A stretch of DNA of 64,000 nucleotides from assembly GCF_949628265.1 (NCBI RefSeq), contig NC_088789.1, forward strand, positions 34,775,883 to 34,839,882. The letters are read 5' to 3'. The notes beneath the pieces were generated by a model. The model ran no database searches, was not told the DNA's origin, and saw only the letters and a program-made list of their open reading frames with translations. The stretch's first letter is position 1. Every line of letters starts with the position of its first letter. The position numbers and the translations under genes are program-made. Below, in pieces: positions 1-52,876 of this stretch. Source of the stretch: Cloeon dipterum (Eukaryota; Arthropoda; Insecta; Ephemeroptera; Baetidae).

Positions 1-705
1 ATGATGTCAATCCCTTCAGATGTGGCCACGCCCTTACTCGAGCTGTCCAACTCTTGATCTTAAATTTAAATTAACTCAAAGATTATTAAAAGCAGTTATT
101 AAATCTGGTTAAATCTCCTTTCAAATTTAGAAATATCATCTATAGCATTCCTATATCGCGATACATTCTTGAGAAATGCATCAAACATATATTGACAGAG
201 AATTTAATAAAATATACTTGTCATGTCAACGTTGGGTTCCGTGAACGTTGGCGCAACATTGGCGTCATCAGAGCTTCCTGTCGAAGCGACTGTATTGTTC
301 AACGATGCTGGCAGGCTGGTGAGCTAGGGACATAAAATTTTTTGCTGACCATTTTTTGAAATGAAATATTTGAACTCACTTCGATATTTTCCCTAATTGT
401 CGTTTGGGGCCTCTTGGCGCTGGACTTCGGCAGACATCTTTTGATGCCACAGCACTTGATAATTGTCATCCTCCGCGAGGTTTTTGTCTTAGCAGCTTTT
501 AAATTTGTTACGTAACAATTTTTTTGAAGTACTGAAAACGTACCAGCAATTCCTTTAACACGTCTTAGCCTTTTCCCATTCTGTGAATAAGCATAGCGGA
601 AGAAGCATATGAATTTCTTCACGAGTTTAAACTTACGAGAAAGATAGCTTCTCCAAAAATGATCAGCAATGTGGAAAATACGACGCTCATGAATAGAAAA
701 TTCAT
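1..705 (-). CDS. LO-Z: 5' part of a CTLD-OBP gene, cut by the left window edge
   Basis: This is the first part of a fourth copy of the large lectin/OBP gene, read leftward. Exons are 705-637 (signal/anchor, starting M-N-F-L-F), 580-544, 495-380 (basic segment with KCCGIKRCLP), 323-218 and 58-1 (start of the Ser/Thr-rich exon). Lengths 69, 37, 116 and 106 and phases 0-1-0-1 match the homologous exons of LO-C, its closest relative. Nothing in the visible part is broken, but everything from the mucin-like exon onward, including all CTLDs and the OBP domain, lies outside the window. It is divergent from LO-A. LO-C mirrors it across the palindrome, so the outer end of the left arm lies at or beyond base 1. 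Confidence 0.75.
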
Positions 706-1353: not shown

Positions 1354-4300
1354 ATGAATTTTCTCTTCATGAGCGTCGTATTCGCCTCATTACTGATCAT
1401 TTTCGGAGAAGCCATCTCCCTCGTGAGTTTTAAATTCACGAAGAAGATAATTTTATTCTTTTATTATTATGCTCATTCACAGAAAAGGAAAAAACATAAT
1501 TCAAGACGTGTTAAAGAAATTTCTGGTAGGCTCAAAAAAGGGTTTTCAGTATTGTATAAATAATGTTACGTAACAATTTCGGAAGCTGTTTATCATCCGA
1601 AATCATCGCGGAGGGTCGCAATTATCAAGTGCTGCGGCATCAAAAGATGTCTGCCGAAATCCAAGAAAGCCCGAACGACGTCGAGCAAAGTGAGTAAAAA
1701 TCATCCATTTATTTCGAAAAATCCGGCTGAAATATTGCTCTCCTAGCTTGGCAGCCTGCCAGCATCGTTGAACGAAACAGTCCTTTCGACAGGAAGCTCT
1801 GATGACGTCAATAGCGTTGCAACATCATTTACGGACCCAAGCGTTCACACGACGGGTATATTTTATTTTGCAAAATGTTCTGACAACGTTTGCTGCAGCT
1901 CTCAGCGTTATTTCCAAATATGAAACGAGTATTAACAGATATTTATATGACAAAAAATGCTTTGAATAATTTGATATATCATTTTAAACATATATCTCTA
2001 ACCAAATTTTAATAAAAAATTCGATCTTAATGATATAAATCGTAATATTTTGCTCACTTTCATTTAAAAAGTGATCGGTATCTTTAAAGATGAAGAGTTG
2101 GACAGCTCGAGTAAAGGTTCGGACACATCTGATGGGACTGAGTCAACTGACATCATAGAAATCCCTACAACCGAAAGAATTATCGTCTCGGCCGTCACAA
2201 AATCGCCCACCCCCGTTGTTGGATCAAATTTTCCACCAGTTTTTAAGAGCACTAGTGGCACATCTGCATCTGCCATTCCAACTTCGAAACAGACAACTGC
2301 AATATCTCCAACGGCGACTGATGCAGCCAAAACCGTGGTTCCAACAATCACTACGACCTCCAAAGCTCTACTAACAACTACGAGTACAACAACCACCACA
2401 ATGGCAGTAGGATAAAAAGCCGAAAAATCGACGCATATTATAGAAAACAATTGGTTTTTCAGCCCAAATCCTGTTCCATGATGTGCACAGACTTTGATCA
2501 ATTTCTTTTGGTATTTAAAAACCCTAAATATGACTTTAAGATCAAAATTTGTTAATTACGCAGGGAAAACCAACATCTAAGCCTTCATCGGGTAAAAGAT
2601 AGAACTTATAACTTAGCAAACTATATAAATAAAAATACATTTTAACTTTCAGCGGAGGGCTCAGTGCTAACCGCAACCTTGTGCAAGAAGAAATACTTCG
2701 TTTCTAGCGTTAATGTGAGATAAAACAAACTAAAAACTTTTAAAATCCACTAATCCCTTGAAGGTGGCGAGAAACGAAGCGGGATTGCGGTGCAAGGCGA
2801 TGGACATGTCGCTCTTGGCTGTCACTTCCCTCGAGGAACTGAATTGTCTTGCCAGTTTGAAAGAAGGTAAAATTCAACCGAATACTTTAATTTAAATCGA
2901 TTAAACTAAATACAGTTGTTGGTTCGTTCTGGACGGGTGGCTCGAATGTCGACGAGAAATGCGAATCTGGAAAAAAGTACGGGTGGTGTTCGACTGGCCA
3001 CAACATGTCCTCGGCGCTGGTGTCTTTGTCCAACTTCTGGATGCCATCAGACGTCCCTCCTTCCAATCTCGAAAGCTGTCTGGCTGTTTTGATTTCATCC
3101 CCTGAGAAGAAGGGGATGGAGCATAGGAATTGCGACGATCTTCTGCCCTACATCTGCCAGTTCGCAGTGAACTGTCCTAAGACGTGCACCAAAAACGTAA
3201 TCTTCTTTAATTATTTAAATGATTATTTACACTTTTGTAAATAATAATGCTTTCAGAAATCCTTGTTTGACACGGCTGGCAACTTGATGAGTAAAAGAAA
3301 ACTTTGATAAGTTACTCCATCAATAATTTTTAATTCTATAAGACAAAACATCGTACGGAATTTGGATTGATATAGGAAAATACACGTATCTCTTGGGAAA
3401 CAAACCAGTAATTATTATTAATAAGATGAAACAAAATTAAAAATCTTTTGGAAAAAGATGAGTTGGGAGGCGAGCTGGCGTCAGTGTTGTGCTTTGGGAA
3501 TGCGGACTCTCAAAATTGACGATGCTGAGGAGCAAGCGGGCCTTACAAATATGACAGTCGTTTTTAAAGGTAAACTCTTTTGATCTTAAAATAATCATCG
3601 CGATAAATACTATTATAATCTTGCATTAATGATTAATAATATTATGAATTCAGACGAATGGAAAGCAAATTTTAACTACTGGACCAGCGGCACGTGGAAA
3701 GGGGCTCCAGTGGGCGAGTGGTCGTGGTGCGAGCCCAACGGGCCCACCATCCTCGTCCCGGGTCTAGCGTGGGAAAGCGGCCAACCTGACAACAAGAACG
3801 GAACCGAAAGCTGCATCCACTTCCGCTTTGTTTTAAACTCGACGGGTACTATCCTGACAGACCGGAATTGCGCAAGCAAATACATCTACGCCTGCAAGGT
3901 ACATAGTTTGAACTTGCACATCAAATTAGAATGGAAAAACTGATCTATTCGATTTTTATTAATTTATGAAAATTATGTAGATGCCGATTTTAACGACTCC
4001 AAAACCGTGTGTTGCGTTGTGCCCGAAAAAGCCGTGTCAGCGAAACGTAAAAATACAAACTTAAAATTATAATGCAAAAAATTAAAACAATAAACACCGC
4101 AATCAGCTCACCCTGTTTGGCCCTGAAAATCAACTCCTCAGTATGATATATATATACCCTTTTACTTATCAAGATGAAGTCATTTAAATTAATATTTTCC
4201 AGATTACCCTTTTTACGGTGATTGGTTTACCGGATGCGGACGCAATTTCTTGTTCTACAATATAACTAGAGTATAGATTTAACTAAAATAAATAAAATAA

Positions 4301-6229
4301 ACACAACATAAATATGCAGTTGGACTGGGGCAGTGCCTGGGACCTTTGCTGCAGTTTGGGTTTGACCCTGACCTCCTTGGAGTCCAAAGATAAAACAAAA
4401 TGCTTTTCTAAACTTGTCACGAGTAAGATTTTTCTTGCTTTTATTTTAAAAAACCAATTAAAAAACGATCAATATAGGATACGCCCGGTTCACTGTAGGC
4501 GACTATTGGCTCTCTGGAACCGACCTAGGTTGCGATTCAAACTTTCGGTGGTGCTCTCTGGGCCGCGATTTCGTCGACCCTGAGCTCAGGTGGAAGCAGG
4601 GACACCCGAAAGCAGGACTGGACTGCGTTTACGTCGAGGCAAGAAACGGATCGGTGGTGTTGGCCACCGCGAATTGCGATGAGCAGAAGTGGTCCGTATG
4701 TGAAGTGCGCAAAAAGGGCACCAGCCAGGTTGCTTTGCAGAACGAATGCCTGGAAACCTGGCAAATCACTAATGGTATAATTAATTTGTAAATTTATTGA
4801 AGGTTTTTTGTATTTTTATTTAGCTCAACTTGCCTTGCTTACTAACGCCGCCGCATTTCTTACTGCGAACATCTCTCTCGAACTGAAGGTTATTCACTAA
4901 TTTTTGAATTTTGAATTTTAAAGGTGAATTTTTAATATTTCAGTGCTTTTTGAAATGCATTGGATTCAACTTTGGATTGGTAAGTTAACATAATTTAAAG
5001 CCATAAAAATAGTTGGCGCATTTTAAAGAAATTTTAAAACCATAGCTAATCACAGGTGCGGATGATTTATTGATTTTTAAATCTTAGTTTGGTGTTGGAG
5101 AATTGAATTCCATCTCAATGTTGCGTCAAGTGGAGCTCGTGTCCATGGAGGAGCCTGAGAAAATGGAGAAGGGATTTGTTGCATTCGACGAGTGCAGTGG
5201 CAAAAGTTGACTTTTTTCAAAACCAAACAAATTTTGTTATTAAATATTTAAAGATGCGGACGATGAGTGCGTGACTGCGTACGAAACTTACAAATGCGGC
5301 CTGGAGAAGACTCCAGACCTGGTTGCGAACATAATTACGAATAACCTTGGCAGCGGTCCTGTGGTCAGGATTTAATTAATTTAACGCAATAAAACTAAAA
5401 AATAAACACGTAGATGTACCCTCCAACTCCGTGCATTCCGATTCGCAGGACTTGTTGGCTCTCAAGTAATTTACCTTGCGTTAGAAATGTAAACTACTAT
5501 TTCCTGAGATTAAAATCATAATATTAAATTCGCATAAAATTTCCGCAGCAAGCAGCTATCGATTTACTGAACAGCCAAGGCAATGGTGAGTAGACCTGAC
5601 GATTTATTAATTTATCTGGATACAAAGTATTTCAATTGATTTTGTAAGATGACATGGGGGTCAAGAAAACCGTTGCAGACAAGATTTATTACCATGGAAA
5701 TTACGACGTGACTAAAGGAGACGCCGTAAGATAGTTTGCGATGAAATTTTGTATTTATTATGAAAATTTTGCAGAGCCCTGTGACGGCATTCCAACGTTG
5801 CTGTGAACTCGGCATGAGGCTTTACGAACCTCAGACTGCAGCAGATTATATTAACGCTAGGGACAACATAGTCGGTAAACATCAAGAAAATATAGCGACA
5901 GTTTCAGATTATTCCCTTTTAATTCTTCTGTTCGATGGTTTTCAGGGAATTTCGGCCCACCCCTGCTGATACTTGGAGAGACGGAGTTCATCAACAGGAC
6001 GCACGAGGTGTGGTGTCGCAGCCGCACCCTGCTCACCGACGACATGCTCAGCCCTGATCCGGCCCGCAGGTATCCCTGCGCCGAGTCGATGCCCAGCGTG
6101 GTCGGACCTGACGGAACGGTCTATATGCATGCTAGAATGGACCTTGACGTTCACGACTACTTCATCAATCCGCAAAAGTATCCGACTAAGGATTATCAGT
6201 TTCAGAGCTTTATTTGTGAGCCACTGTAA
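1354..6229 (+). CDS. LO-A: secreted or membrane-anchored CTLD x3 - OBP - CTLD chimeric protein
   Basis: Twenty-eight exons: 1354-1422, 1483-1525, 1586-1689, 1747-1855, 2072-2406, 2463-2510, 2564-2591, 2653-2714, 2764-2866, 2916-3196, 3257-3290, 3343-3407, 3458-3569, 3654-3898, 3981-4046, 4107-4140, 4203-4270, 4320-4422, 4478-4774, 4824-4888, 4944-4979, 5088-5205, 5254-5363, 5414-5488, 5549-5585, 5649-5725, 5775-5874, 5946-6229. They sum to 3108 nt in frame (1035 aa). Layout: hydrophobic start 1-23, basic 24-72, Ser/Thr/Pro-rich 73-220, CTLD1 ~246-385, CTLD2 ~405-546 with a QPD sugar-binding motif, CTLD3 ~580-715, OBP ~727-823, Cys linker, CTLD4 ~885-1035. Short linkers C-P-K-x-C separate the first domains. 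The OBP part has CFLKC and a C-x8-C pair. An upstream in-frame ATG at 1294 would add 20 residues. The ligand is unknown. Confidence 0.85.
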
Positions 6230-6416
6230 AAATATCAGAGTGAAATTTGCACTACCAATTCAGGTTGTTTTGCACTCTTTAAAATACTGAATAATTAGAT
6301 TTTATCTGAGTATTTTTAAAGAAATGTTTTAATTAAAAATAAATTAAAATCCATATATTCAAAGTGTGCAGTGTAAAAATCTTTATTTCAATTTTCACAC
6401 AAAATTGGAGTCTGGC
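6230..6416. other. Tail-to-tail intergenic gap of LO-A and L1
   Basis: This AT-rich gap is shared by two convergent genes. An AATAAA-type signal for LO-A lies near 6340-6350. The reverse-strand AATAAAGATT of L1 lies near 6378-6388. The mirror copy is 13086-13261. Confidence 0.5.
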
Positions 6417-7167
6417 TTAGCATCCGTCGTTGGCCTGGCAGACGGCAAAATTGGTGCCCCTGCAACCTTCGTCCCACAGGTGTTTGGCGTAAAACGTGGA
6501 AAAGACCACGCAAGTCTTCTTGCCTGGGCCGAAAGAGTTGGGCTGATTCTCCTCCTTGAACCAGAGCGAGCTGTTGAGGGGCAGCTCCTGTCCGTTGCCC
6601 CACCGGAACTGTCCGGGCTCCCGTCCTACGTCGGACGCGTCCACCCACCACGCAACTAAAATAATAAAATTAAAATTCCAAAATCAGTAAGTCGAGTTTT
6701 TAAATAAATAAATTTTTTCATTAAAATCAAAGGGATTCTCACCTCCAGAGATGTTTAAGGCTTTGGCGTGCACCACGTCCAGCTCCTCACGCGTGTCCAG
6801 GATTGGAAGACGCATGTTGTTTCTCTTGCAAAAACGCTTTGCGTCCTCATGGTCCACCTGAAGACAAAATTATGAAGAAACGCGGCTTTTTCAAAAGATT
6901 ATACACCTACCCATTTCTTATGGAAGTAATATTTCTTGCCGTTCGAGAGCAAATGCGTTTCGATGCCTAAAAATAGGTTATTTTTTAAAACTTAAATAAA
7001 GATAATTAAATATACTTGACGGCGGGCATTGCGGCTGGGCAGTAGTAGTCTAGAAAAAAGTCAGAAATTAATAAATGAGTTAAATAATTTAGACTTCTTA
7101 CATCCTCGGCTGGAGCGGCGAGGGCAGCAGAAATTCCAACGAGCAAAATGAGGTAAAGAGATTGCAT
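6417..7167 (-). CDS. L1: small secreted single-domain C-type lectin
   Basis: Five exons: 7167-7102 (signal peptide M-Q-S-L-Y-L-I-L-L-V-G...AAPAED), 7049-7016 (short linker ending QCPPS), 6966-6911 (IETHLLSNGKKYYFHKKW), 6857-6743 (first half of the fold with FCKRNN) and 6655-6417 (WWVDASD, then QPN, and the C-terminal cysteines). The total is 510 nt, 169 aa. The sugar-site triplet is QPN, between the textbook EPN (mannose) and QPD (galactose) forms. The second site reads LWDEGC instead of W-N-D, so calcium/sugar binding is plausible but unproven. The last residue is a cysteine that may pair with the one in QCPPS. L4 is its mirror partner, and the last 75 residues of the two are identical. Confidence 0.85.
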
Positions 7168-7828: not shown

Positions 7829-8637
7829 TTAGCACCCAGCGTTGGCCTGGCAGACGACATATTTAGAATCCCCGCAACTTTTGTCCCAAAGCAAATCTCC
7901 GTACCACGTGGATAAGACCACGCAAGTCTTCTTGCCTGGGCCGAAAGAGTTGGGCTGATTCTCCTGCTTGAACCAGAGTGAACTGTTGAGTGGCAGCTCC
8001 TGTCCGTTGCCCCACTTATACTGTCCAGGCTCCTGTCCTACGTCGGACGCGTCCACCCACCACGCAACTAAAAGGATTAAATAAAAATGTTCTTAGCGGA
8101 CAGAGAAATTGCGTTTTGTATCATAGAAAAGTATAAAAACAAACATTTTTCACTAGCGATAAGCGCCTCCGTAGCGACTCCAAGGTCAAGATTATCTCAC
8201 CTCCAGCGATGTCTCCGGCCTTTGCGCGCACCACGTCCAGATCCTCACGCGTGTCGAGGATTGGAACACGGCCGTGATTTCTCTTGCAAAAACTCTTTGC
8301 GCCGTCAAAGTCCAACTGCAGGAAAAATTATAAATACGTGCAGCTCTTTAAAAAAAAATTAGCACACCTACCCACTTCTCATGGAAGAAGTATTTCTTGC
8401 CGTTCGAGAGCAAATGCGTTTCGATGCCTACAAATTAGGATATTAAAAAAATAAATGAAGAAATAAGTTAAAATTTACTTGATGGTGGGCATTTCGGCTT
8501 GGCAGTAGTCTAGAAAAAATTCAGAAATTGATAAATAAAAAGTTAAAGAATTTAGAGCTTCTTACCTCCTCGGCAGGAGCGGCGAGCACAGCAGAAATTC
8601 CAACGAGCAGAAAGAGGTAGAGGGTAAGAGATTGCAT
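7829..8637 (-). CDS. L2: small secreted single-domain C-type lectin
   Basis: Five exons: 8637-8566 (signal peptide M-Q-S-L-T-L-Y-L-F-L-L-V-G...), 8509-8479 (TTAKPKCPPS), 8427-8372, 8315-8201 (FCKRNHGRVPILDTRED) and 8067-7829. The total is 513 nt, 170 aa. It has the WWVDASD core, the ENQPNSF sugar-site loop and LLWDKSC at the second calcium site. It ends A-N-A-G-C, where the other small lectins have A-N-D-G-C or A-D-Q-G-C. It is the inner left-arm partner of L3 across the palindrome. Exon lengths after the signal exon (31, 56, 115, 239) and phases equal those of each CTLD cassette in the LO genes. Confidence 0.85.
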
Positions 8638-10845: not shown

Positions 10846-11658
10846 ATGCATTCTTTAAGCCTTTACCTCTTTCTGCTCTTTGGAATTTCTGCTGTGCTCG
10901 CCGCTCCTGCCGAGGAGGTAAGAAGCTCTAAATTCTTTAACTTTTTATTTATCAATTTCTGAATTTTTTCTAGACTACTGCCAAGCCGAAATGCCCACCA
11001 TCAAGTAAATTTTAACTTATTTCTTCATTAAATTTTTTAATATCCTAATTTGTAGGCATCCAAACGCATTTGCTCTCGAACGGCAAGAAATACTTCTTCC
11101 ATGAGAAGTGGGTAGGTGTGCTAATTTTTTTTTAAAGAGCTGCACGTATTTATAATTTTTCCTGCAGTTGGACTTTGACGGCGCAAAGAGTTTTTGCAAG
11201 AGAAATCACGGCCGTGTTCCAATCCTCGACACGCGTGAGGATCTGGACGTGGTGCGCGCAAAGGCCGGAGACATCGCTGGAGGTGAGATAATCTCTTGAC
11301 CTCTTGTAACTTATTTTCACTCTTGACCTTGGAGTCGAAACAGTGGCGCCTCGTAATTTTTTTTATCATACAAAACGTATTTTCTCTGTTGTGCGCATAC
11401 TTTTATTTAATTCTTTTAGTTGCCTGGTGGGTGGACGCGTCCGACGTAGGACAGGAGCCTGGACAGTTCAAGTGGAGCAACGGACAGGAGCTGCCCCTCA
11501 ACAGTTCGCTCTGGTTCAAGCAGGAGAATCAGCCCAACTCTTTCGGCCCAGGCAAGAAGACTTGCGTGGTCTTATCCACGTGGTACGGAGATTTGCTTTG
11601 GGACAAAAGTTGCGGGGATTCTAAATATGTCGTCTGCCAGGCCAACGATGGGTGCTAA
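10846..11658 (+). CDS. L3: small secreted single-domain C-type lectin, mosaic of L5-like and L2-like sequence
   Basis: Five exons: 10846-10917 (signal peptide M-H-S-L-S-L-Y-L-F-L-L...AAPAEE), 10974-11004, 11056-11111, 11168-11282 and 11420-11658. The total is 513 nt, 170 aa. It has the WWVDASD core, an ENQPNSF loop and LLWDKSC. Exon 1, intron 4 and the start of exon 5 (QFKWSNGQEL) match L5 better than its mirror partner L2. The end of exon 5 and the 3' flank match L2. Exon 3 reads IQTHLLSNG instead of the usual IETHLLSNG. AATAAAGATT lies just downstream, near 11690. Confidence 0.85.
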
Positions 11659-12318: not shown

Positions 12319-13085
12319 ATGCAATCTCTAAAAACCCTTTGCCTCCTTCTGCTCGTGGGAATTTCTGCTGCCCTCGCCGCTCCAGCCGAGGATGTAAGAA
12401 GCTCGAAATTATTTAACTTGAAATCATTTATTAATTTCTGACTTTTTTTCTAGACTACTACTGCCCAGCCGCAATGCCCGCCGTCAAGTATATTTAATTA
12501 TCTTTATTTAAGTTTTAAAAAAAACCTATTTTTAGGCATTGAAACGCATTTGCTCTCGAACGGCAAGAAATATTACTTCCATAAGAAATGGGTAGGTGTA
12601 TAACCTTTAGAAAGAGCTGCACGTATTTATAATTTAATCTGCAGGTGGACCACGAGGACGCAAAGCGTTTTTGCAAGAGAAACAACATGCGTCTTCCAAT
12701 CCTGGACACGCGTGAGGAGTTGGACGTGGTGCACGCCAAAGCCTTAAACATCTCTGGAGGTGAGAATCCCTTTGATTTTAATGAAAAAATTTATTTATTT
12801 AAAAACTCGACTTACTGATTTTGGAATTTTAATTTTATTATTTTAGTTGCGTGGTGGGTGGACGCGTCCGACGTAGGACGGGAGCCCGGACAGTTCCGGT
12901 GGGGCAACGGACAGGAGCTGCCCCTCAACAGCTCGCTCTGGTTCAAGGAGGAGAATCAGCCCAACTCTTTCGGCCCAGGCAAGAAGACTTGCGTGGTTTT
13001 TTCCACGTTTTACGCCAAACACCTGTGGGACGAAGGTTGCAGGGGCACGAATTTTGCCGTCTGCCAGGCCAACGACGGATGCTAA
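12319..13085 (+). CDS. L4: small secreted single-domain C-type lectin
   Basis: Five exons: 12319-12393 (signal peptide M-Q-S-L-K-T-L-C-L-L-L-L-V-G...), 12454-12487 (TTTAQPQCPPS), 12536-12591, 12645-12759 (FCKRNNMRLPILDTREEL) and 12847-13085. The total is 519 nt, 172 aa. The terminal exon encodes the same 75 residues as L1 (QPN loop, LWDEGC, final ANDGC), so the two arms have been homogenised recently or duplicated recently. Its signal peptide has a K-T-L-C stretch not seen in L1. It is convergent with LO-B, with the polyadenylation signals of both in the 176-bp gap. Confidence 0.85.
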
Positions 13086-13261
13086 ACCAGACTCCAATTT
13101 TGTGTGAAAATTGAAATAAAGATTTTCATACTGCACACTTTGAATAGATGGATTTTAATTAAAACTTTTCTTTAAAAATACTCAGATAAAATCTAATTAT
13201 TCAGTATTTTAAAGAGTGCAAAACAACCTGAATTGGTAGTGCAAATTTCACTCTGATATTT

Positions 13262-16200
13262 TTACAGTGGCTCACAAATAAAGCTCTGAAACTGATAATC
13301 CTTAGTCGGATACTTTTGCGGATTGATGAAGTAGTCGTGAACGTCAAGGTCCATCCTAGCATGCATATAGACCGTTCCGTCAGGTCCGACCACGCTGGGC
13401 ATCGACTCGGCGCAGGGATACCTGCGGGCCGGATCAGGGCTGAGCATGTCGTCGGTGAGCAGGGTGCGGCTGCGACACCACACCTCGTGCGTCCTGTTGA
13501 TGAACTCCGTCTCTCCAAGTATCAGCAGGGCTGGGCCAAAATTCCCTGAAAACCATCGAACACAATTAAAAGGGAATAATCTGAAACTGCGTCGCTATAT
13601 TTTCTTGATGTTTACCGACTATGTTGTCCCTAGCGTTAATATAATCTGCTACATTCTGAGGCTCGTAAAGCCTCATGCCGAGTTCACAGCAACGTTGGAA
13701 TGCCGTCACAGGGCTCTGCAAATTTTTCATATTAAATTAAAAAAGTTCAAAGCAAAATTATCTTACGGCGTCTCCTATACGAACGTCGTAATTTCCATGG
13801 TAATAAATCTTTTCTGCAACGGTTTTCTTGATCCCCATGTCATCTTACAAAATCAATTGAAATACTTTGTATCCTGATAAATTTAATAAATCATCAAGTG
13901 TACTCACCATTGCCTTGGCTGTTCAGTAAATCGATAGCTGCTTGCTGCGGAAATTATGTATGATTTTAATATTGTGATATTTACTCTCAGGAAATAGTAG
14001 TTTACATTTCTAACGCAAGGTAAATTACTTGAGAGCCAACAAGTCCTGCGAATCGGAATGCACGGAGTAGGAGGGTACATCTATGCGTGTTTATTTTTTA
14101 GTTTTATTACGTTTTAAATTAATTAAATTCTGACCACAGGACCGCTGCCAAGGTTATTCGTAATTATGTTCGCAACCAAGTCTGGAGACTTCTCCAGGCC
14201 GCATTTGTAAGTTTCGTACGCAGTCACGCACTCATCGTCCGCATCTTTCAATATTTTAGCAAATATTTGGTCGTTTTAGAAAATTAATGTCAACTTTTTC
14301 CACTGCACTCGTCGAATGCAACAAATCCCTTCTCCATTTTCTCAGGCTCCTCCATGGACACGAGCTCCACTTGACGTAACATTGCGATGGAATTCAATTC
14401 TCCAACACCAAACTAAGATTTAAAAATCAATAAATCGCATCTGCACCAGTGATTAGCTATGGTTTTGAAAATTTCTTTAAAATGCGCCAACTATTTTTAT
14501 GGCTTTAAATTATGTTAACTTACCAATCCAAAGTTGAATCCAATGCATTTCAAAAAGCACTGAAATATTAAAAAATCATCTACAAAATTCGAATTAAAAA
14601 CATTAGTGAATAACCTTCAGTTCAAGAGAGATGTTCGCAGTAAGAAATTCAGCGGGGTTGGTAAGCAAGGCAAGTTGAGCTAAATGAAAATAATAATAAG
14701 CAATTAATAAATAAACTAATTAAATATACCATTAGTGATTTGCCAGGTTTCCAGGCATTCGTTCTGCAAAGCGACCTGGCTGGTGCCCTTTTTGCGCACT
14801 TCACATACGGACCACTTCTGCTCATCGCAATTCGCGGTGGCCAACACCACCGATCCGTTTCTTGCCTCGACGTAGACGCAGTCCAGTCCTGCTTTCGGGT
14901 GTCCCTGCTTCCACCTGAGCTCAGGGTCGACGAAATCACGGCCCAGAGAGCACCACCGAAAGTTTGAATCGCAACCTAGGTCGGTTCCAGAAAGCCAGAA
15001 ATCGCCAATAGTGAATCGGGCATATCCTTTATTGATCGTAATATTTTATTAAATTTATAAGGCGGGATTGAAAAATCTCACTCTTGACAAGTTTAGAAAA
15101 GCATTTTGTTTTATCTTTGGACTCCAAGGAGGTCAGGGTCAAACCCAAACTGCAGCAAAGGTCCGAGGCACTGCCCCAGTCCAACTGTAGATATATATTG
15201 TGTTTATTTTATTTATTTTAGTAAATTCAATACTCTAGTTATATTGTAGAACAAGAAATTGCGTCCACATCCGGTAAACCAATCACCGTAATAGGGATAG
15301 TCTGAAATTATTAATTTTAAGGGCTTCTTCTTGATAAATAAAAGGGTATATATATCCTACTGATAAGTTGATTTTCAGGGCCAAACAGGGTGAGCTAATT
15401 GAAGTGTTTATTGTTTTAATTTTTGCATTATAATTTTAAGTTTGTATTTTTACGTTTCGCTGACAGGGTTTTTTTGGGCACGAAGCTACACACGGTTTCG
15501 GAGTAGTTAAAATTGGCATCTAGGATTTTCACAAATTATTAAATGTAAGTTTTTCCATCCTTATATGATCCCGTACCTTGCAGGCGTAGATGTATTTGCT
15601 GGCGCAATTTCGGTCCGTCAGGATAGTACCTGTAGAATTCAAAACAAAGCGGAAGTGGAGACAGCTCTCGTTTCCGTTTTTGTTGTCAGGTTGGCCGCTT
15701 TCCCACGTTAGACCCTGGTCGAGGATGGTGGGCCCGTTGGGCTCGCACCAAGACCACTCGCCCACCGGAGCCCCTTTCCACGTGCCGCTGGTCCAGTAGT
15801 TGAAATTCGCTTTCCATTCGTCTGAATTCATAATATTATTAATCATTAATGCAAGATTATGATATGTATCGCGATGATTTTTTTAAGATCAAAAGAGTAA
15901 ACCTTTAAAAACGACGGTCAGGTTTGTGAGGCCCGCTTGTTCCTCTGCGTCGTCGATTTTGAGAGTCTGCATTCCCAAAGCGCAGCACTGCCGCCAGCTC
16001 GCCTCCCAACTCATCTTTATTCAAATTATTTTTATTTTATTAGAACTTATGATATATAATTACTGGTTTGTTTCCCAAGAGATACGTGTATTTTCCAATA
16101 TTAATCCAAATTCCATACGATGTTTTGTCTAACATTTAAATTAAGATATTGAATGAGTAACTTATCAAAGTTTTCTTTTACTCATCAAGTTGCCAGCCGT

Positions 16201-18100: not shown

Positions 18101-19020
18101 GTTTTCCGAGCCGACTCCGCAGCTGGACTGCGTCGAACTAATGGGGAATCGCACGTTTTCATTTTTCGGCAGCTCCGTCACACGTTTTAATGGTTTCATC
18201 CTGTTTTGCTGCCGCTTGAGTGCTTTTTCCATGATGGCCACTGGCCTAAATTTTCGAGATAAAATCGTTGATGAGAGGACTACGCAACTATAGCGACTGC
18301 AGGTTTTGTTTGATACAATTTTGTGTGCAGTTAAAAGATCCACTGGTGTTACAGCAACACTTTCCCGCCAGGCGCTAAAATTAAAATCTGTAAGCTTAAT
18401 GTAAGGTTTTCATTACTTGAGCCTATATTGTATGAATATTCTTGCACAATACAAATGCAAGATAGGAGCACAAATTGATTTTCTACACGTCAATTTTTAT
18501 TCAGGAGAGTTTGCCTCATACTCGTTCACGAATACTTTTTTTTAACGATGAAACAAGGGCCGTAAAAATCATACCATTCGGATCTTGTCATCCATTTTAT
18601 TGAACAGCATCAATAAAGAGTTATTTCCATTGCAAAATTGCAAATCCTGCAATAAATTACGTGAAATATCTCTTTTGCTGTGATAATCATGCCGGTACTA
18701 AACAAATAAAATAATGATTTATTCTAACTATCGATTTTAATTTAATTATTAACAGATGGTAAAACATTAAGGATAATTTTTAAATTTTAAAATCTTTAAA
18801 TTGCTTAAAACATTGTATATAACAAAAAGCAGTCCTCATCAACGATAAACTAGAAAATATAGGCCGCATCGGCCGTCATGGAAAGTGCGCAAGCGGCAAC
18901 TAGGAAAACAGGATGTACGTATGTATCTGTTCTCATGATTAAAAACGTGAGCTGCCGATCACGAGTTGTGATTTTTCCATCAGTACATCGCAGTCCAGCT
19001 GCAGAGCCGACAGGGAAAAA
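18101..19020. promoter_or_regulatory. Shared promoter region between divergent LO-B and LO-C
   Basis: Head-to-head gap homologous to 706-1353. The same core (CTCATCAACGAT, then GAAAAT, TAGGCC and GGCCATCATGGAAA forms) lies at about 18,230-18,275 toward LO-B and 18,835-18,885 toward LO-C. About 260 bp between 18,300 and 18,560 have no counterpart in the LO-Z/LO-A gap, so this is either an insertion here or a deletion there. Confidence 0.5.
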
Positions 19021-22000
19021 ATGAATTTTCTATTCATGAGCGTCGTATTTTCCACAATGCTGATCATTTTTGGAGAAGCAATCTTTCTCGTAAGTTTAAA
19101 CTCGTGAAGAAATATTCATATTCATCTTCGTTATGCTTATTCACAGAATGGGAAAAGGCTAAGACGTGTTAAGGGAATTGCTGGTACGTTTTCAGTACTT
19201 CACAAAAATTGTTACGTAACACATTTCAAAGCTGCTCATGCGAAAACATCGCGGAGGGTCGCAATCATCAAGTGCTGCGGCATCAAAAGATGTCTGCCGA
19301 CGTCCAAGAGGGCCCGAACGACAATGAGGGAAATCAGCAAAGTGAGTTGAAATATTTCATTTCAAAAATTGCCAGCAAAAATTTTGTTTCCCAAGCACAC
19401 CAGCTCGCAAGCATCGTTGAACAGAACAGTCGCTTCGACAGGAAGCTCTGATGACGTCAATGTGGCGCCAACATTCACGGAACCCAACGTTGACACGACA
19501 AGTATATATATTTTTTCAAAATCTCTGTCAATTCGTTTGATGCATTTCTCAAGAATGTATAGCTATACATGATATTTCGAAATTTGAAACGAGATTTAAC
19601 CAGATTTAATTACTACTTTTAATAATCTTTGAGTTAATTAATATTGAAGATCAAGAGTTGGACAGCCCGAGTATGGGCGTTGCCACATCTGAAGGGACCG
19701 AACCGATTGAAATCATAGAAAAGACTACAATCCAAAGAATTATCGTCTCCTCCATCAAAAACTCGCCAACCCCCGCAGTTGCACCCACTTTTCGACCAGT
19801 TTTTGAAAGCAAAAGTGGCGCTATGACGACTGGAATCAGTGTCGCTACCACTTCTTCATCATCTGCAATTCCAACTACGACGGAAGTGATAACTACAACA
19901 TCTCCAACGACAACTGGTTTAGCCAAAACCGAGGCACCAACAACAATTACGACCTCCAAAGCAGTAACAACAACTACGAGTACATCAACCACCACAATAG
20001 CAGTAGAATACAAAACTGAAAAGGCGACGCAAATGATTGAAAATGATTGGATTTTCAGCCCAAATCCTGTTCCATGATGTGCACAGACTTTGATCAATTT
20101 CTTTTGGTAATTAAAATCACTAAATATGACTTTAAGATCAAAATTGGTTAATTACCCAGGGAAAACCAACATCTAAGCCTTCATCAGGTAAAAGATAGAA
20201 CTTAAAGCAAACAATGTATAAATAAAAAAATCGATATTAACTTTCAGCGGAGGGTTCAGTGCTAACCACAACCTTGTGCAAGAAAAAATACTTCGTTTCT
20301 AGTGTTAATGTGAGAAAAACAAACTAAAAAATCTTCAAGTCCACTAATCCCTTGAAGGTGTCGAGAAACGAAGCCGGATTGCGTTGCAAGGCGATGGACA
20401 TGTCGCTCTTGGCTGTAACTTCCGTTGAGGAACTGAAATGTCTTGCCAGTTTGAAAGAAGGTAAAATTCAACCGAATACTTAAATTTAAATCGATTAAAC
20501 TAAAAACAGTTGTTGGTTCGTTCTGGACGGGTGGCTCGAATGTTGACGAGAAATGCGAATCTGGAAAAAGGTACGGATGGTGTTCGACTGGCCACATCAT
20601 GTCTTCGGCGCTGGTCTCTTTGTCCAACTTCTGGATGCCATCGGACGTGCCTCCTTCCAGTCTAGAAAGCTGTCTGGCTGTTTTGATATCGTCCCCTGAA
20701 AAGAAGGGAGTGGTGCATAGGAATTGCCACGATCTTCTGCCCTACATCTGCCAGTTCACAGTAAATTGTCCTAAGACGTGCACCAAAAACGTGATCTTCT
20801 TTAATTATTTAAGTGATTATTTACACTTGTAAATACTAATGCTTTCAGACATCCTTATTTGACACGGCTGGCAACTTGATGAGTAAAAGAAAACTTTGAT
20901 AAGTTACTCCATCAATAAATTTTAATTCTATAAGACAAAACATCGTACGGAATTTGGATTGATATAGGAAAATACACGTATCTCTTGGGAAACAAACCAG
21001 TAATTTTATTAATAAGATGAAACAAAATTAAAAATCTTTTGGAAAAAGATGAGTTGGGAGGCGAGCTGGCGTCAATGCTGCGCTTTGGGAATGCAGACTC
21101 TCAAAATCGACGATGCTGAGGAGCAAGCGGGCCTTACAAATATGACAGTCGTTTTTAAAGGTAAACTCCTGATTTAAAATATTTAATTTGATAAATATAA
21201 TAAAAATAACAAATTCAGACGACTGGAAAGTGAATTTCAACTACTGGACTAGCGGCACGTGGAAAGGGGCTCCGGTGGGCGAGTGGTCGTGGTGCGAGCC
21301 CAACGGTCCCACCATCCTAGACCAGAGTCTAACGTGGGAAAGCGGCCAACCTGACAACAAAAACGGAAACGAGAGCTGTCTCCACTTCCGCTTTGTTTTG
21401 AATTCCACAGGTACTATCCTCACAGACCGGAATTGCGCAAGCAAATACATCTACGCCTGCAAGGTACGGAATATTTTCCCACAGCCATTAGAATGCGTCA
21501 TGTTCATCCACAACATTAATTTCTTGATTTGTGAAATTAGATGCCGATTTCGACCACGCGAAAGCCTTGTGTATCTTCGTGCCCAAAAAAGCCGTGTCAG
21601 CGAAACGTAAAAATAGAAGATAGTTTAATTAACAAAAAGTTTAAAATAAACACCGCAATCAGGTCACCCTGTTTGGCCCTGAAAATGTTCTCCTCGGTAC
21701 GATATATATATAACCTTTTTTATTTATCGAAGAGTCCTTAAAATTAATAATTTCCAGACTATCCCATTTACGGTGAATGGTATTCTGGATGCGGACGAAA
21801 TTTCTTGTTCTACAATATAACTAGAGTATAGACTTAACTGAAACATTTAAATTAAAAGCATGACAAATATAAATCTTTAGTTGGACTGGGGCAGTGCCTG
21901 GGACCTTTGCTGCAGTTTGGGTTTGACCCTGACCTCTTTAGAGTCCGCGGATAAAACCAAATGCGTTTCGAAAATTATCAAGAGTAAGTTTTTTCTCTCT

Positions 22001-24344: not shown

Positions 24345-25155
24345 TTAGCACCCATCGTTGGCCTGGCAGACGACGAATTTTGTATCCCCGCAACTTTCGT
24401 CCCACAGACTCCTGCCGTACCACGTGGAAAAGACCACGCAAGTCTTCTTGCCTTGACCAAACGAATCGGGCTGATTCTCCTGCTTGAACCAGAGCGAACT
24501 GTTGAGGGGCAGCTCCTGTCCGTTGCTCCACTTGAACTGTCCAGGCTCCTGTCCTACGTCGGACGCGTCCACCCACCAGGCAACTAAAAGAATTAAATAA
24601 AAGTATTCGCACAACAGAGAAAATACGTTTTGTATGATAAAAAAAAATTACGAGGCGCCACTGTTTCGACTCCAAGGTCAAGAGTGAAAAGCTACAAGAG
24701 GTCAAGAGATTATCTCACCTCCAGCGATGTCTCCGGCCTTTGCGCGCACCACGTCCAGATCCTCACGCGTGTCTAGGATTGGAACACGGCCGTGGTTTGT
24801 CTTGCAAAAACTCTTCGCGTCGTCAAAGTCCAACTACAGGAAAAATTATAAAAACGTGCAGCTCTTTCTAAGGATTATGCACCTACCCACTTCTTGTGGA
24901 AGAAGTATTTCTTGCCGTTCGAGAGCAAATGCGTTTCGATGCCTACAAATTAGGATATTAAAAAATTTAATGAAGAAATAAGTTAAAATTTACTTGATGG
25001 TGGGCATTTCGGCTTGGCAGTAGTCTAGAAAAAATTCAGAAATTAATAAATGATTTCAAATTAAAGAATTCAGAGCTTCTTACCTCCTCGGCAGGAGCGG
25101 CGAGCACAGCAGAAATTCCAACGAGCAGAAAGAGGTAAAGGCTTAAAGAATGCAT
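24345..25155 (-). CDS. L5: small secreted C-type lectin with a QPD sugar-site motif
   Basis: Five exons: 25155-25084 (signal peptide M-H-S-L-S-L-Y-L-F-L-L-V-G...), 25024-24994, 24942-24887, 24833-24719 and 24583-24345. The total is 513 nt, 170 aa. It differs from all six other small lectins in having ENQPDSF instead of QPN in the sugar-site loop. QPD is the galactose-type triplet in classical CTLDs, so a ligand shift is possible. It also has SLWDESC at the second site. It sits outside the palindrome, in the same orientation relative to LO-C as L1 has to LO-A. Confidence 0.85.
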
Positions 25156-26447: not shown

Positions 26448-27173
26448 CTAGCAGCCTTGGTCGGCCTGGCAGACTGCCCAGTAGATGTCGTCGCAGATTG
26501 TGTCGAACAGGTGCTTTCCGAAAAACGAGGAGTAGAAAACGCACGTCTTCTTTCCAGGGCCGAACGAATTGGGCTGCTCCTCCTGCCAGAGCGAGCTGTT
26601 GCGGGGCAGCTCCTGTCCGTTGCCCCACCTGAAGTGTCCAGGCTCCTGTCCAATGTCGGACGCGTCCACCCACCACGAAACTAAAATAAATATAATCGAT
26701 TCCAATGTGGAACTAAAGAGGCGCCACTGTTTCTCACCTCCGACGGTGGTATTGGCCCTGGCTAGCACCACGTCCAGTTCGTCAATCGTTTCGATGATTG
26801 GAAGCCGCATGTTGTTGCTCTCGCAAAATCCTTTTGCTTCATCGTAGGTCACCTGGCGACAAAATTATAAAAATGCGAGATGGGGTTAAATCATTAAATT
26901 AGTACCCATGGCGTGTGAAAGTAGTATTTCTTGCCGTTCGACAGCAGGTGCAATTCGATGCCTGGACAAAATTGTGTTATTTTACAGTAATAATGAGAAA
27001 AAAATGGGCGTTACTTGAAGGGGGGCATTTCGGCTTGGCAATCTAGATAAAAAGACCAAAAATAAATGACAATAGTTTCAAACTTAAAATTTAGGACGCA
27101 TTACCTCGGGAGGAGCAGCGAGGACAGCAGAAAGTCCAACAAGCAGAAAGAGGTAAAGGGTTGGAGATTGCAT
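26448..27173 (-). CDS. L6: small secreted C-type lectin, divergent member
   Basis: Five exons: 27173-27105 (signal peptide M-Q-S-P-T-L-Y-L-F-L-L-V-G...), 27042-27015 (IAKPKCPPS), 26961-26906 (IELHLLSNGKKYYFHTPW), 26852-26738 (FCESNNMRLPIIETIDEL) and 26680-26448. The total is 501 nt, 166 aa. It has EEQPNSF but LFDTIC at the second site, so the tryptophan of the usual L-W-D is lost, and ends ADQGC. It is the most diverged small lectin and has a weaker promoter (TTATACT instead of the GATCGGATATAAAAAG core). The 57-bp intron between the last two exons has no stop and is a multiple of three, so an unspliced product with 19 extra residues is readable. Confidence 0.82.
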
Positions 27174-27598: not shown

Positions 27599-28397
27599 TT
27601 AGCACCCATCGTTGGCCTGGCACACGACAAATTGAGATTTCCCGCAACTTTCGTCCCAGAGCAAATCTCCGTACCAAGTGGAAAAGGTCACGCAAGTCCT
27701 CTGGCCAGGGCCAAACGAATTGGGCTGCTTCGCTTGCTTGAACCAGAGCGAACTGTTGAGGGGCAGCTCCTTTCCGTTGGCCCACCTGTACTGTCCAGGC
27801 TCCCGTCCTTCGTCGGACGCGTCCACCCACCACGCAACTATAATAATATAATTAAAATTTTCTCAGGAAAAATTATCAAAATTTTTTGTAAGGCACTGTT
27901 TCGACTCCAGGGTCAAGTGTGAGGCCACAAATTAAATATTAACTCACCTCCAGAGATTTTTCCGGCCTTTGCGCGCACCACGTCCAGATCTTCACGCGTG
28001 TCGAGGATCGGAAGACGGCCGTTGTTTCTCTGGCAAAAATTCTTTGCTTTGTCGAAGTTTGACTGTAGACAAAATTATAAAGACACGCGGCTCTTTCAAA
28101 AGACTATACACCTACCCACTCCTTGTGGAAGAAGTACTTCTTGCCGTTCGAGAGCAAATGCGTTTCGATGCCTAAAAAATTAGAGGTTATTTAGCAAAAA
28201 TTATAATTCAAGAAAATTATATAGATCTACTTGATGGCGGGCATTTCGGCTGGGCAGTGGTTGTCTAGAAAAAAGGGTAGAAATTAATAAATGGTCCAAG
28301 ATACAGAATTTATAGAGCTTCTTACCTCCTCGGCTGGAGCGGCGAGCACAGCAGAAATTCCAACGAGCAGAAAGAGGTAAAGGCTTAAAGAATGCAT
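27599..28397 (-). CDS. L7: small secreted single-domain C-type lectin
   Basis: Five exons: 28397-28326 (signal peptide M-H-S-L-S-L-Y-L-F-L-L-V-G...), 28264-28231 (TTTAQPKCPPS), 28171-28116, 28062-27948 (FCQRNNGRLPILDTRED) and 27837-27599. The total is 516 nt, 171 aa. The sugar-site loop is AKQPNSF and the second site LLWDESC. It has DEGREPGQYRWANGKEL where the others have D-V-G. It is the last small lectin of the cluster in this window. Confidence 0.84.
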
Positions 28398-38680: not shown

Positions 38681-40350
38681 ACAAGTATATGTTGGAAGTG
38701 CTTTTAAAACATTGTCAGAGGTGGTGGAGGAAAAACTCGCATGGCCGCCGCGCAACCTGATTGGCTGTCAAAAAGATAGCGCATTCCGTCCACTTTGTCA
38801 CGCCTTTTACAGCAGAATTAAAGGTGGATTTATGGGAATTATGTTTTCCTATTGGTCGTGTCGATAGCGAGCTCTCGATTAATTCAAAATGGTCTGCAGT
38901 GTGTTATTCTCGCATTTGACATAACCCCGATTAACTTATCAAACACGCACTCAGAAATCAATCCATGAAAATTAGACGCACGGGGAGGGAAATTTCGACG
39001 CATTGGCAGGTCGTTCCAGGGTTGGCAGACCCTGAATCGAAAGGCGCTTCGGCCGAAAGCGGGAAAAAATCGTCGATAATTCTCGCTCTCACGTTGAATT
39101 AATCTGTGTGTCCGCTTCGGAAAAAGACGCGAGTTGTCCGGGTGTGTCGAATGGCAGCACATTTTCCACAATTTTTCCAGGGCTCTCTCTTTTGGTTTTG
39201 CACGCTGCCAAACCTGGCTTTACCCTGGCTCAGGTCGGCGCCGCCAAACTCTCGCTCGCTCGATTTCTGTGTGCCGAGGTCGCGCGCCCATGTGCACGCC
39301 GCGAGCAGCCGATTTTCCTTCTGCGATTTTTCCAAGCTCGCCGCATGACTGATTCCTGGCTGGCTGTTGACCAAAACGATTTAGTTAAACAGTTTCCTGC
39401 CTTTAGCGGTTTTATTGGAGCTTTTATTCAGCATGAGCGGTCATTTGGAACATTTTTGTTAAATTTTTGCGAATAAAATTCGGGCATTATTGAAATTCTT
39501 TGCTCCTGAATTGCACGCCCACGTTGGATCAGCTCCAAAATCAGCGGAAAATCGATTCGTGCCATTAAAACAACCAATTCGTTAACATAAAGCGTTAAAT
39601 TGTGTCACAAGGTCAAGTGCAAAGCACAAAAAGCGACGCCTTATCGCAGCAAACAGCGGTCGCTGCGCGGTGGCAATGAAAAATGTAGAGTGTGTATTCA
39701 AGAGCAAAAGCAGGCCGTCCGCAATTAATTTTGAATCCTCTGCAGAGTTAATTTCCCACATTTTAGCGTATTTAAAACGTCCTCACGATCTCAACTTCTT
39801 TTGTTACATTCTTTCGTTAAACTAACGCTGTGCCGTCATGATAATTATTGGGAAAGCAGGAAAAGGAATTTAATTTTTTTTAATGCCATGCAAATGACCA
39901 GAAGAGGAAATCGACCGACCACACCGACTCTCACTGCGGTGTTTTTTTATCAAAGGCGAGCAGCAGACCTCCGCCAGGGTTTTATAGCAGCATCGCCCCT
40001 TGAGTTTGGTAGACGTCGAAAATCAGGGTCTGCTCGACGACCAGCTTCTTCAGGTCCGCCAGGGTGAAGCAGCTGTCGATAGCAGAATCATCTGTCTCTC
40101 GTCGCTTTTAGTCCACGCAGCGTCAAAAACCATTTTTTTATCTCGAGGGTTTGTCAGTCAGCAGATAGTCAAGGTTTTCCATTTAATCCAAGCAAAATTA
40201 GATTTTATTCGCCAAAAAACTAAATTTTAATAAAAAAATTCATCTTTGAATGGAATTTGTAGATATATGTTTCAGCTGAAATGAAAGACGAGTCACACAA
40301 GGTTGAGGATTTCTTTATTACACGAAATTCCACAGAGTTTTCGCCAGAAA

Positions 40351-41482
40351 TCATTTTATGTCAACCTCGGGAATTGCAGCAATGATGTATGAGTAGTAGA
40401 AGCCGAGGTTTAAAAACAGCCATATTCCATCCATATCGCCAGTCGCGGTATTACAATTATAATCGTACAAACCTCCTTGAGCCTGAGTTCCAAAGGCAAT
40501 TGTCGGTTTATTGTAATAGGTAGGCGTTGCATCCGTAAGAAACTGCAGATGACGGAAATAAATTATTCAGTCTTGCGTAGAGATGTAAGAGAACTCACTG
40601 AGCAAAATCCAGGAGTGGAATCCTGGTACATGCAAATATATGCACCTCCCGAAGATTCAGGGCAGCTTGCAGTGCTCTTCGCGGAGGCAGGCAGTTTTCT
40701 TAAGACGTGCTTCAAGAAGAAAAACACGAGTCAAAAGGAGATTTCAATGCAAAAGGTGAAACTAACCGATGACGCATTGTAGAAGAGCAGAACGCCGGTC
40801 GTATTGACGTCAGCAGTCAGGTTGTTGAAGCTGGAGGCCGTCATCGGCAGGGTTGGCCCTCGAAATTTCTCGCACACTTTCAGATAAACTGCAGAACCTC
40901 CCAAAATTGATTCAATCCTTGCTACGGGCCGAACCTTTCCAGATTGATCCGTGACATTCACTCTTGAGGGTCTGCAAAAAAATCCTTAATAATATCGAGC
41001 GATTGCTTGTAAAATTATTTACTCACGAGGCGTAAATTAAGTCTGCTGAGGCTAGAATATATTTCTTGCTGAGAAATCCTGCAGCTTCGGTGTAAGGGTA
41101 AGGTGCACTTTGATCAGTAACCTTGACCTGAAATTAAAGCTTGTGTGTGCAAGTGTGATAGAGAATTGAGTCAAGGACACTCACGACGTAGGGGAATTCA
41201 TTGGGGTTAGCGTCCGTGATAACCGCCGACTGGCCCCAAACAACTGAAACAATATTCGATAACCTTCATTTTACTAGAATTTGAAGCTTTACGAGGTCTA
41301 AGGATTTTTAAACATATCAACCCGTTAAGACCCTAGTGATTTGTGGTTCGTGCTCATTGCTGAGAGAGTAAATCGGGGAAAAAGCGAGAGTCCAACCTCG
41401 AGTGAGTATTATTCATACCTGCGACGATGAGCAGCTGACAGAGCAGAAGGCAAGAGCCAAGGATGACCGTTTTCGATGCCAT
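40351..41482 (-). CDS. D2: secreted chymotrypsin-fold (S1) pseudoprotease
   Basis: Six exons: 41482-41419 (signal peptide MASKTVILGSCLLLCQLLIV), 41243-41185, 41127-41027, 40971-40767, 40709-40599, 40542-40351. The total is 732 nt, 243 aa. Landmarks: NEFPYVVKV at the start of the domain, KKYILASADL in place of L-T-A-A-H-C, TGVLLFYN in place of D-I-A-L-L, and AYICMYQDSTPGFCS, which matches the M-I-C-A-G...C segment before the active-site loop. After it come YYNKPTIAFGTQAQGG instead of G-D-S-G-G-P and a C-terminal LNLGFYYSYIIAAI helix. All triad residues are missing and there is no zymogen cleavage site. Intron phases equal those of D1 and D3. The role is unknown. Confidence 0.75.
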
Positions 41483-51520: not shown

Positions 51521-52876
51521 TAATAACAAGTATGTTGGAAGTGCTTTTAAAACATTGTCGTAGGTGGTGGAGGAAAAACTCGCATGACCGCCGCGCAACC
51601 TGATTCGCTGTCAAAAAGATAGCGCATTCCGTCCACTTGGTCACGCCTTTTACAGCAGAATTAAAGGTGGATTTATGGGAATTATGTTTTCCTATTGGTC
51701 GTGTCGATAGCGAGCTCTCGATTAATTCAAAATGGTGTGCAGCGTGTTATTCTCGCATTTGACAAACCTCCGATTAATTTTTATTAAACACGCACTCGGA
51801 AATAAATCCATAAAAATTACTCGCACGGGGAGGAAAAGTTCGACGCGTCGGCAGGTCGTTCCAGGGTTGGCAGACCCTGAATCAAAAGGCACTTCGGCCG
51901 AAAGCGGGAAAATATCCTCGATAATTCTCGCTCTCACGTCGAAATTAATCTGTGTGTGTCCGCTTCGGAAAAAGACGCGAGTTGTCCGGGTGTGTCGAAT
52001 GGCAGCACATTTTCCACAATTTTTCCAAGGCTCTCTCTTTTGGTTTTGCACGCTGCTAAACCTGGCTTTTTTCTGGTCAGGTAGGCGCCGCCAAACTATC
52101 ACTCGATTTCTGTGTGCCGAGGTCGCGCGCGCTCCCATGTGCAAAGCACAAAAAGCGACGCCTTATCGCGGCAAGCAGCGGTCGCTGCGCGGTGGCAATG
52201 AAAAATGTAGAGTGTGTATTCAAGAGCAAAAGCAGGCCGTCCGCAATTAATTTTCAATCCTCTGCAGAGTTAATTTCCCACATTTTAGCGTATTTAAAAC
52301 GTCCTCACGATCTCAACTTCTTTTGTTACATTCTTTCGTTAAACTAACGCTGTGCCGTCATTCTAATTATTGGGATAGCAGAAGAGGGAATTTAATTTTT
52401 TTTAATTCCACGCAAATGACCAGAAGAGGAAATCGACCGACCACACCGACTCTCACTACAGTGTTTTTTTTATCAACGGCGTGCAGCAGACCTCCGCCAG
52501 GGTTTTATAGCAGCATCTCCGCTTGTGTTTGGCAGACGTCGATAATCAGGGTCTGCTCGACGACCAGCTTCTTCAGGTCCGCCAGGGTGAAGCAGCTGTC
52601 GATAGCAGAATCATCGGTCTCTCGTCGCTTTTGGTCCACGCAGCGTCAGAACCATTTTTTTTATCTCGAGGGTTCGTCAGTCAGCAGATAGTCAAGTTTT
52701 TCCATTTAATCCAAGCAAAATTATATTTTATTCGCCGGAAAATTAAATTTTATTAAAAAAAAATCATCTTTGAATGGAATTTGTAAATATGTATGTTTCA
52801 ACTAAAATGAAAGACGAGTCTGACAAGGTTGAGAATTTCTTTATTACACGAAATTCCACAGAGTTTTCGTTAGAAA

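Follow-up and report, generated by a model that had tools for sequence, protein, structure and literature searches.

A mayfly gene family that sets an odorant-binding domain within a chain of C-type lectin domains

How does a complete odorant-binding protein (OBP) domain come to sit within a long chain of C-type lectin domains (CTLDs), and what might a protein of that design do? The question is raised by LO-A, one of three related long genes (with LO-B and LO-C) in a stretch of 64,000 nucleotides from the baetid mayfly Cloeon dipterum, which we call the window (C4:34775883-34839882 of a 190 Mb assembly in 10 contigs). A first-pass annotation had proposed that LO-A encodes three CTLDs, a complete OBP domain and a fourth CTLD in one gene. 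The exon chain, Pfam profiles and predicted folds confirm this architecture, with CTLD4 in a degenerate state, and the earlier interpretation as a whole is supported. Lectin and OBP domains are each familiar, and this OBP is an ordinary one; what is out of the ordinary is its setting. Judged from sequence, the family is apparently known so far only from baetid mayflies and its proteins are apparently secreted. Our reading, to which we assign a probability of roughly 0.5, is that these are secreted chimeras of baetid mayflies, with an OBP inside a CTLD chain in one polypeptide, that function as glycan-anchored ligand traps or presenters.

The gene models were obtained by aligning LO-A, LO-B and LO-C and searching for exon chains, which were chosen on common splice sites and codon conservation; the inner splice sites, AG and GT, fall at aligned positions in all three copies. 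Threading the model proteins back onto the DNA, a consistency check that is not independent of the exon-chain models, recovered the LO-A exons unchanged and gave LO-B and LO-C 28 exons each within the limits listed in Table 1, as their in-frame alignment also does and as had been claimed for both. Independent support comes from database proteins. P0065 and LO-A agree at every one of 256 residues across exons 22-28, P0002 threads onto LO-C as the full 28 exons and 1039 residues, and the model of a paralogous locus, L032, contains 59 of the 59 30-residue words sampled from P0001. The limits originally assigned to LO-A are correct to the base, although its product, put at 1035 residues, has 1029 in the model.

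Table 1 Features of the window, with LO-A and its parts first
Feature	Position	Strand	Basis and remarks
LO-A, 28 exons, 1029 aa, CTLD1-CTLD2-CTLD3-OBP-CTLD4	1354-6229	+	Exon-chain model, Pfam, P0065
Exon 1, hydrophobic N-terminus, putative signal peptide	1354-1422	+	Hydropathy (Kyte-Doolittle), 10-residue peak of 3.2 at residue 8
Exon 3, N-terminal IIKCCG motif	1586-1689	+	Conserved motif; exon 3 frame agrees with P0002
Exon 5, mucin-like stretch	2090-2406	+	Residues 105-215 are 50% Thr/Ser/Pro
CTLD1, exons 8-10	2653-3196	+	Lectin_C 28.4 bits, cut out singly
CTLD2, exons 11-14, QPD motif GQPDNKNGTESC	3257-3898	+	Lectin_C 26.6 bits, cut out singly
CTLD3, exons 16-19, to last cysteine	4107-4701	+	Lectin_C 22.9 bits, cut out singly; fold of paralogue P0001
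Exon 19, junction exon: CTLD3 end and OBP C1 in one open frame	4478-4774	+	Exon chain; one exon spans the junction in all 23 LO-type loci
OBP domain, exons 19-23, six classic cysteines	4732-5363	+	PF01395, OBP matches in PDB, fold of relative P0033
Degenerate CTLD4, exons 26-28, to stop codon	5649-6229	+	Profile similarity to CTLD3, predicted fold
LO-B, same 28-exon gene, 1030 aa	13262-18100	-	Exon chain and protein threading
LO-C, same 28-exon gene, 1039 aa	19021-23833	+	Exon chain, threading, P0002
Further copy, first exons only (locus L035)	6-705	-	Head to head with LO-A, runs past left window edge; 1 frameshift in alignment
Small single-CTLD-like genes	6420-7167, 7832-8625, 24348-25143, 26451-27161, 27602-28385	-	Spliced alignment
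Small single-CTLD-like genes	10858-11655, 12328-13082	+	Spliced alignment

The central segment of LO-A carries the marks of a classic OBP. Its cysteines, at residues 721, 752, 756, 799, 808 and 817, match the spacing C-X30-C-X3-C-X42-C-X8-C-X8-C that had been reported for it. PBP_GOBP (PF01395) scores 39.3 bits at residues 716-820 of the whole protein and 44.0 bits when the domain is cut out (cut-off 22), and OBPs in the PDB are matched at E about 1e-5. PBP_GOBP is also found at E<=0.001 in 26 of the 32 relatives returned by our first protein search. A search for CLECT and PBP/GOBP domains and a structure prediction of the OBP segment had been suggested as checks; the former recovered PBP_GOBP together with CTLD1-3, and the latter gave an OBP-like fold, albeit modelled on a relative instead of on LO-A. 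For a 615-residue model of the paralogue P0001, which is of modest confidence (mean predicted local distance difference test score, pLDDT, 67.3; predicted template modelling score, pTM, 0.49; CTLD2 part mostly below 60), all 50 Foldseek matches listed are proteins of the C-type-lectin fold, with OBPs solely in the VIA list. For that reason the OBP was modelled in the shorter relative P0033, where its predicted structure is an all-helical OBP fold and matches ligand-binding OBPs over at least 100 residues at 2-3 Å. Pfam finds a single PBP_GOBP stretch in LO-A and no second OBP domain, unlike in double-domain OBPs, and the domain is internal, at residues about 716-839 of 1029, unlike in a stand-alone OBP.

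On the lectin side, Pfam recognizes three Lectin_C stretches in the whole LO-A protein, and CTLD1, CTLD2 and CTLD3 each pass the Lectin_C cut-off of 22.6 bits. CTLD3 finds its best or near-best matches, by fold and by profile, in CTLDs of the mannose receptor, DEC-205 and Endo180. CTLD2 has a QPD motif, which is of the galactose type, and the motif is present in all 32 relatives of the first search. None of five CTLD4 sequences tried matched Lectin_C; hhalign relates CTLD4 to CTLD3 (97.3%, E 1.7e-11) over 79 columns in the N-terminal half only, and the PDB matches of its profile are lectins but weak (best E 0.0042). Ahead of the lectin chain, the IIKCCG motif follows the putative signal peptide in LO-A, LO-B, LO-C, P0002, P0005, P0063, P0074 and P0080 among others, and long members of both genera discussed below share it. 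LO-A has 12 N-glycosylation sequons, and no membrane-like segment is apparent in it (no 19-residue hydropathy window above 1.4 beyond residue 35).

The join between the two domain families lies within exon 19, where the last CTLD3 cysteine (4699-4701) is followed by 15 codons and then by the first OBP cysteine (4747-4749). As had been noted at the outset, and as can be read directly from the sequence, neither a stop nor a new signal peptide intervenes. To LO-A, LO-B and LO-C we added 20 of the 94 loci that lie elsewhere in the genome, those with the highest scores, which are nearer relatives and not a random draw; together they make up 23 LO-type loci, and the divergent locus L052 brings the loci read closely to 24. 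The junction falls inside one exon in 23 of 23 LO-type loci (297 nt long except in L044, where 295 nt align) and is followed by exons of 65, 36 and 118 nt. All 24 loci keep the six OBP cysteines and pass from CTLD3 into the OBP with no stop or frameshift, and none of the 22 full-length spliced alignments (20 fetched loci, LO-B and LO-C) contains a stop. CTLD3-OBP alignment scores for the 23 loci range from 769 to 1282, whereas the antisense strand gives no more than 99 and letter-shuffled DNA of the same stretches no more than 73.

The divergent locus L052 (C4:1557000-1559400) has the same domain order, with a 49-nt intron (L052:654-702) exactly at the CTLD3/OBP border; its alignment bears one frameshift mark, beyond the OBP. 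We note this border intron as a clue to the origin of the fusion. It may be ancestral and later lost in the expanded branch, or it may have been gained by L052.

How widely is the arrangement shared? Three protein searches covered 5.8 billion proteins, with matching that needs shared five-residue words and is subject to word and length limits. The 32 relatives from the first search are all from Cloeon dipterum, while the widest search returned 79 proteins, 72 from Cloeon and seven from Neocloeon triangulifer. No species beyond these two genera is among the 79, although a shared-word search may miss distant relatives and does not show absence outside Baetidae. PF01395 is found in five of the seven Neocloeon proteins, three of which also have Lectin_C at E<=0.001; in P0044 and P0074, both from Neocloeon, the CTLDs are visible by alignment only. 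A search with the OBP on its own returned one protein, P0033, a short model, 16 of whose 17 sampled words recur in the fusion locus L044. In a 26-row tree of the CTLD3 and OBP parts, Cloeon and Neocloeon interleave in three groups with supports of 91, 90 and 87, the third of which depends on P0046, a model cut inside the OBP. On the evidence of this tree, the interleaving implies that the fusion, and several chimeric lineages with it, are older than the split between Cloeon and Neocloeon.

Within the Cloeon dipterum genome the family is large. The CTLD3 exon gives 97 matches of at least 80 bits, the next standing at 68 bits (150 of 348 candidates scored), OBP exon 22 gives 98 matches and CTLD4 gives 96 up to E 1. 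Exons were paired by strand and distance, which yields counts that are lower bounds and that include any copies broken elsewhere. An OBP exon lies downstream on the same strand for 96 of the 97 CTLD3 exons, and CTLD4 as well for 91; the 97th CTLD3 match is partial and has neither. Two OBP-exon matches stay unpaired, one at a locus already paired via a different match, which is partial, and the other at L052, as do five CTLD4 matches. The 97 loci form 31 groups, many of them single-gene, on four contigs. Across 22 loci (L044 and L052 excluded), the ratio of nonsynonymous to synonymous divergence (dN/dS), which is rough here owing to high dS and possible gene conversion, has a median of 0.145 for the CTLD3 part (range 0.046-0.681, 230 of 231 pairs, median dS 1.1) and 0.144 for the OBP part (range 0.074-0.44, 222 of 231 pairs, median dS 1.3). 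Both parts are constrained by purifying selection, and to a similar degree. A whole-genome search with the PBP_GOBP family gave a single match, locus L001, because short exons hide OBPs. By eye L001 is an ordinary OBP exon on the minus strand, with no OBP in the plus-strand translation; as a query, this exon finds just itself and two weak matches, so that the stand-alone OBPs of the genome are not countable.

Several observations nevertheless weigh against a single through-running protein. The database model for LO-A itself, P0065, comprises exons 22-28 only and starts inside the OBP. Of 80 database proteins, ten (one a Neocloeon protein) stop short within the OBP and four begin there, while P0072 begins in CTLD3. 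Exon 20 has a weak donor, at the 24th percentile of 538 donors (that of exon 23 is equally weak, at the 23rd), which makes alternative or truncated transcripts possible, and six of the 22 spliced alignments need one or two frameshifts somewhere. Among the same 80 proteins, 45 have a six-cysteine OBP, 42 of these with an upstream CTLD pattern, and 33, P0001 included, run through from an upstream CTLD and the OBP to at least 100 residues downstream; 20 fall in none of these classes. By eye, the ten truncated models mostly read into the introns after exons 20 and 21 (4889-4943 and 4980-5087). It is possible that these are alternative transcript ends and not mere annotation error: exon 21 is just 36 nt long and, together with the weak donor of exon 20, could either have misled gene predictors or mark real alternative ends. 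Prediction error is favoured as a judgement, given that a half OBP would serve little purpose and that conservation covers the whole. A stricter version has two RNAs, one for CTLD1-3 that stops near introns 20-21 and another, farther downstream, that starts in or after the OBP; it would make the fusion more a matter of DNA than of mature RNA. Although P0065, the ten truncated models and the exon 20 donor speak for such split transcripts, we judge them very improbable, since both products would be left with half an OBP and the downstream one without a signal peptide, 33 models run through (among them P0001, with 59 of its 59 sampled words found in L032), all 23 LO-type loci preserve the OBP cysteines and flanking exon lengths, and the domain order recurs in a second genus. 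That the fusion arose by chance or as an artefact, against which the first-pass annotation had argued, is rejected on the antisense and shuffled controls, purifying selection and the Neocloeon proteins. The region is highly repetitive, but an artefact of assembly or alignment is effectively refuted by the same negative controls, by the spread of the 97 loci over four contigs in 31 groups, and by relatives from other contigs and from another species.

What, then, might a single chimeric polypeptide do? The LO protein would be exported, and its Thr-rich region and CTLDs could anchor it to glycans, whether those of microbes or those on mucus, cuticle, gill or sensillum surfaces, with CTLD2 the likeliest candidate for a Ca2+/galactose-type glycan site. 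The OBP pocket would be predicted to hold small hydrophobic molecules at that glycan-bearing surface, such that the protein may act as an anchored ligand trap or presenter and not diffuse freely as a carrier. As the copies multiplied and diverged, they could have come to cover a wider range of ligands and surfaces in the aquatic nymph. The reported expression of Cloeon dipterum OBPs in gills and heads (PMC7250882) fits a surface role if the genes concerned are the LO loci. That link is an assumption and counts as a weakness of the proposal, as do features of the lectin domains themselves: the divergent P0062, P0063, P0071 and P0074 gave no match to the QPD pattern, CTLD1, CTLD3 and CTLD4 have by eye no QPD or EPN motif, and CTLD2 has no full WND motif, the position reading LTD in LO-A.

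The same chain could also be pictured as an immune or haemolymph recognition protein, the CTLDs binding microbial sugars and the OBP microbial lipids or lipid cargo, with host-microbe conflict and not chemosensation driving the expansion. C-type lectins are widely immune in arthropods, multi-CTLD genes here stand in arrays beside small single-CTLD-like genes, and the CTLD2 QPD motif in 32 of 32 first-search proteins would suit such a role. We consider it unlikely, given that both parts are constrained at a median dN/dS of about 0.145, with no evident rapid change, and that OBP expression in Cloeon dipterum is in heads and gills, if the same genes are meant (PMC7250882). Alternatively the OBP module may bind no ligand at all and serve a structural or mucus/cuticle protein as a rigid spacer with disulphide links. 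Its mid-chain position in a long protein fits this, and the loss, by eye, of sugar motifs from other CTLDs here implies that domains can persist as scaffolds. The idea is quite doubtful, since the OBP is as constrained as CTLD3 and its predicted fold matches ligand-binding OBPs over at least 100 residues at 2-3 Å, even if neither point itself shows binding.

The window has other features as well. Interleaved with the long genes are seven small single-CTLD-like genes of 162-170 residues and five exons each (Table 1); three of the seven alignments need frameshifts, and Pfam on two single exons was weak (E 0.013 and none). Inverted pairs of long genes have near-identical ends (613-872 and 18854-19113, 97% over 260 nt; 5926-6338 and 13153-13565, 99% over 413 nt), which suggests recent duplication or gene conversion. 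GC-richer stretches at 39614-40562 and 52136-53088, farther to the right, are duplicated at 92-96% identity.

To our knowledge, OBP fusions with an unrelated domain family are undescribed, and the known ones all join OBP to OBP. The first-pass annotation likewise knew of no CTLD-OBP-CTLD family, and among the matches listed from the open-licence literature we found no CTLD-OBP protein described; PF00059 and PF01395 do co-occur in precomputed annotations of Cloeon proteins. The Cloeon dipterum genome is credited with 191 OBP genes, found by Pfam-based profiles, BLASTP and TBLASTN, a repertoire larger than any described before that study and the basis of a proposal of gill olfaction in mayflies (PMC7250882). 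The 97 loci would amount to 51% of the 191 if every locus were counted in the published set. That set probably includes many LO chimeras. More tentatively, at least half of the 191 may be lectin-OBP chimeras acting as glycan-anchored traps, a new design of chemosensory or immune surface protein with a single origin in baetids or their ancestors and later multiplication. A chimera present in two genera and at 97 loci of one genome may alter how the record-size set is read, and if many of its members are chimeras, both the label of largest OBP repertoire and the expression-based argument for gill olfaction need re-reading. The view of OBPs as soluble odour carriers would, in that case, become directly testable in an animal with an underwater nymph. 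Ordinary biochemistry can address any coupling of sugar and hydrophobic-ligand binding in one chain, since it is possible to express the OBP and CTLD modules separately or in combination.

Comparison with known systems helps to place the family. Proteins of the mannose-receptor type are receptors that sit in the membrane and carry CysR and FN2 domains. LO-A resembles them in its CTLDs in a row and in the best or near-best matches of CTLD3, but differs in its inserted OBP; hydropathy gives no membrane-like segment in it, and Pfam finds no CysR or FN2 domains. With classic insect OBPs (PBP/GOBP, PF01395) the LO domain shares the six-cysteine pattern, a predicted helical fold and significant profile and structure matches, yet those proteins are small, secreted and single-domain, with their own signal peptide, whereas the LO OBP lies inside a chain some 1000 residues long. 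The 191-OBP set comes from the same species, and LO OBP domains would be expected to pass its search methods, but its main text treats the members as OBPs and uses the word 'lectin' 0 times (PMC7250882). The heptageniid mayfly Parafronurus youi likewise has mayfly OBPs, nine of 10 with the classic six cysteines; at a predicted 15.0-27.5 kDa, the 10 reported include no chimera of about 110 kDa (PMC13205551). A parallel in evolutionary course comes from Nasonia, mosquitoes and Drosophila, whose double-domain or dimer OBPs likewise show lineage-specific fusion and then expansion in clusters. Those fusions are OBP-OBP, joining two OBP domains, whereas the partner in LO proteins is an unrelated C-type lectin domain (PMC3428353).

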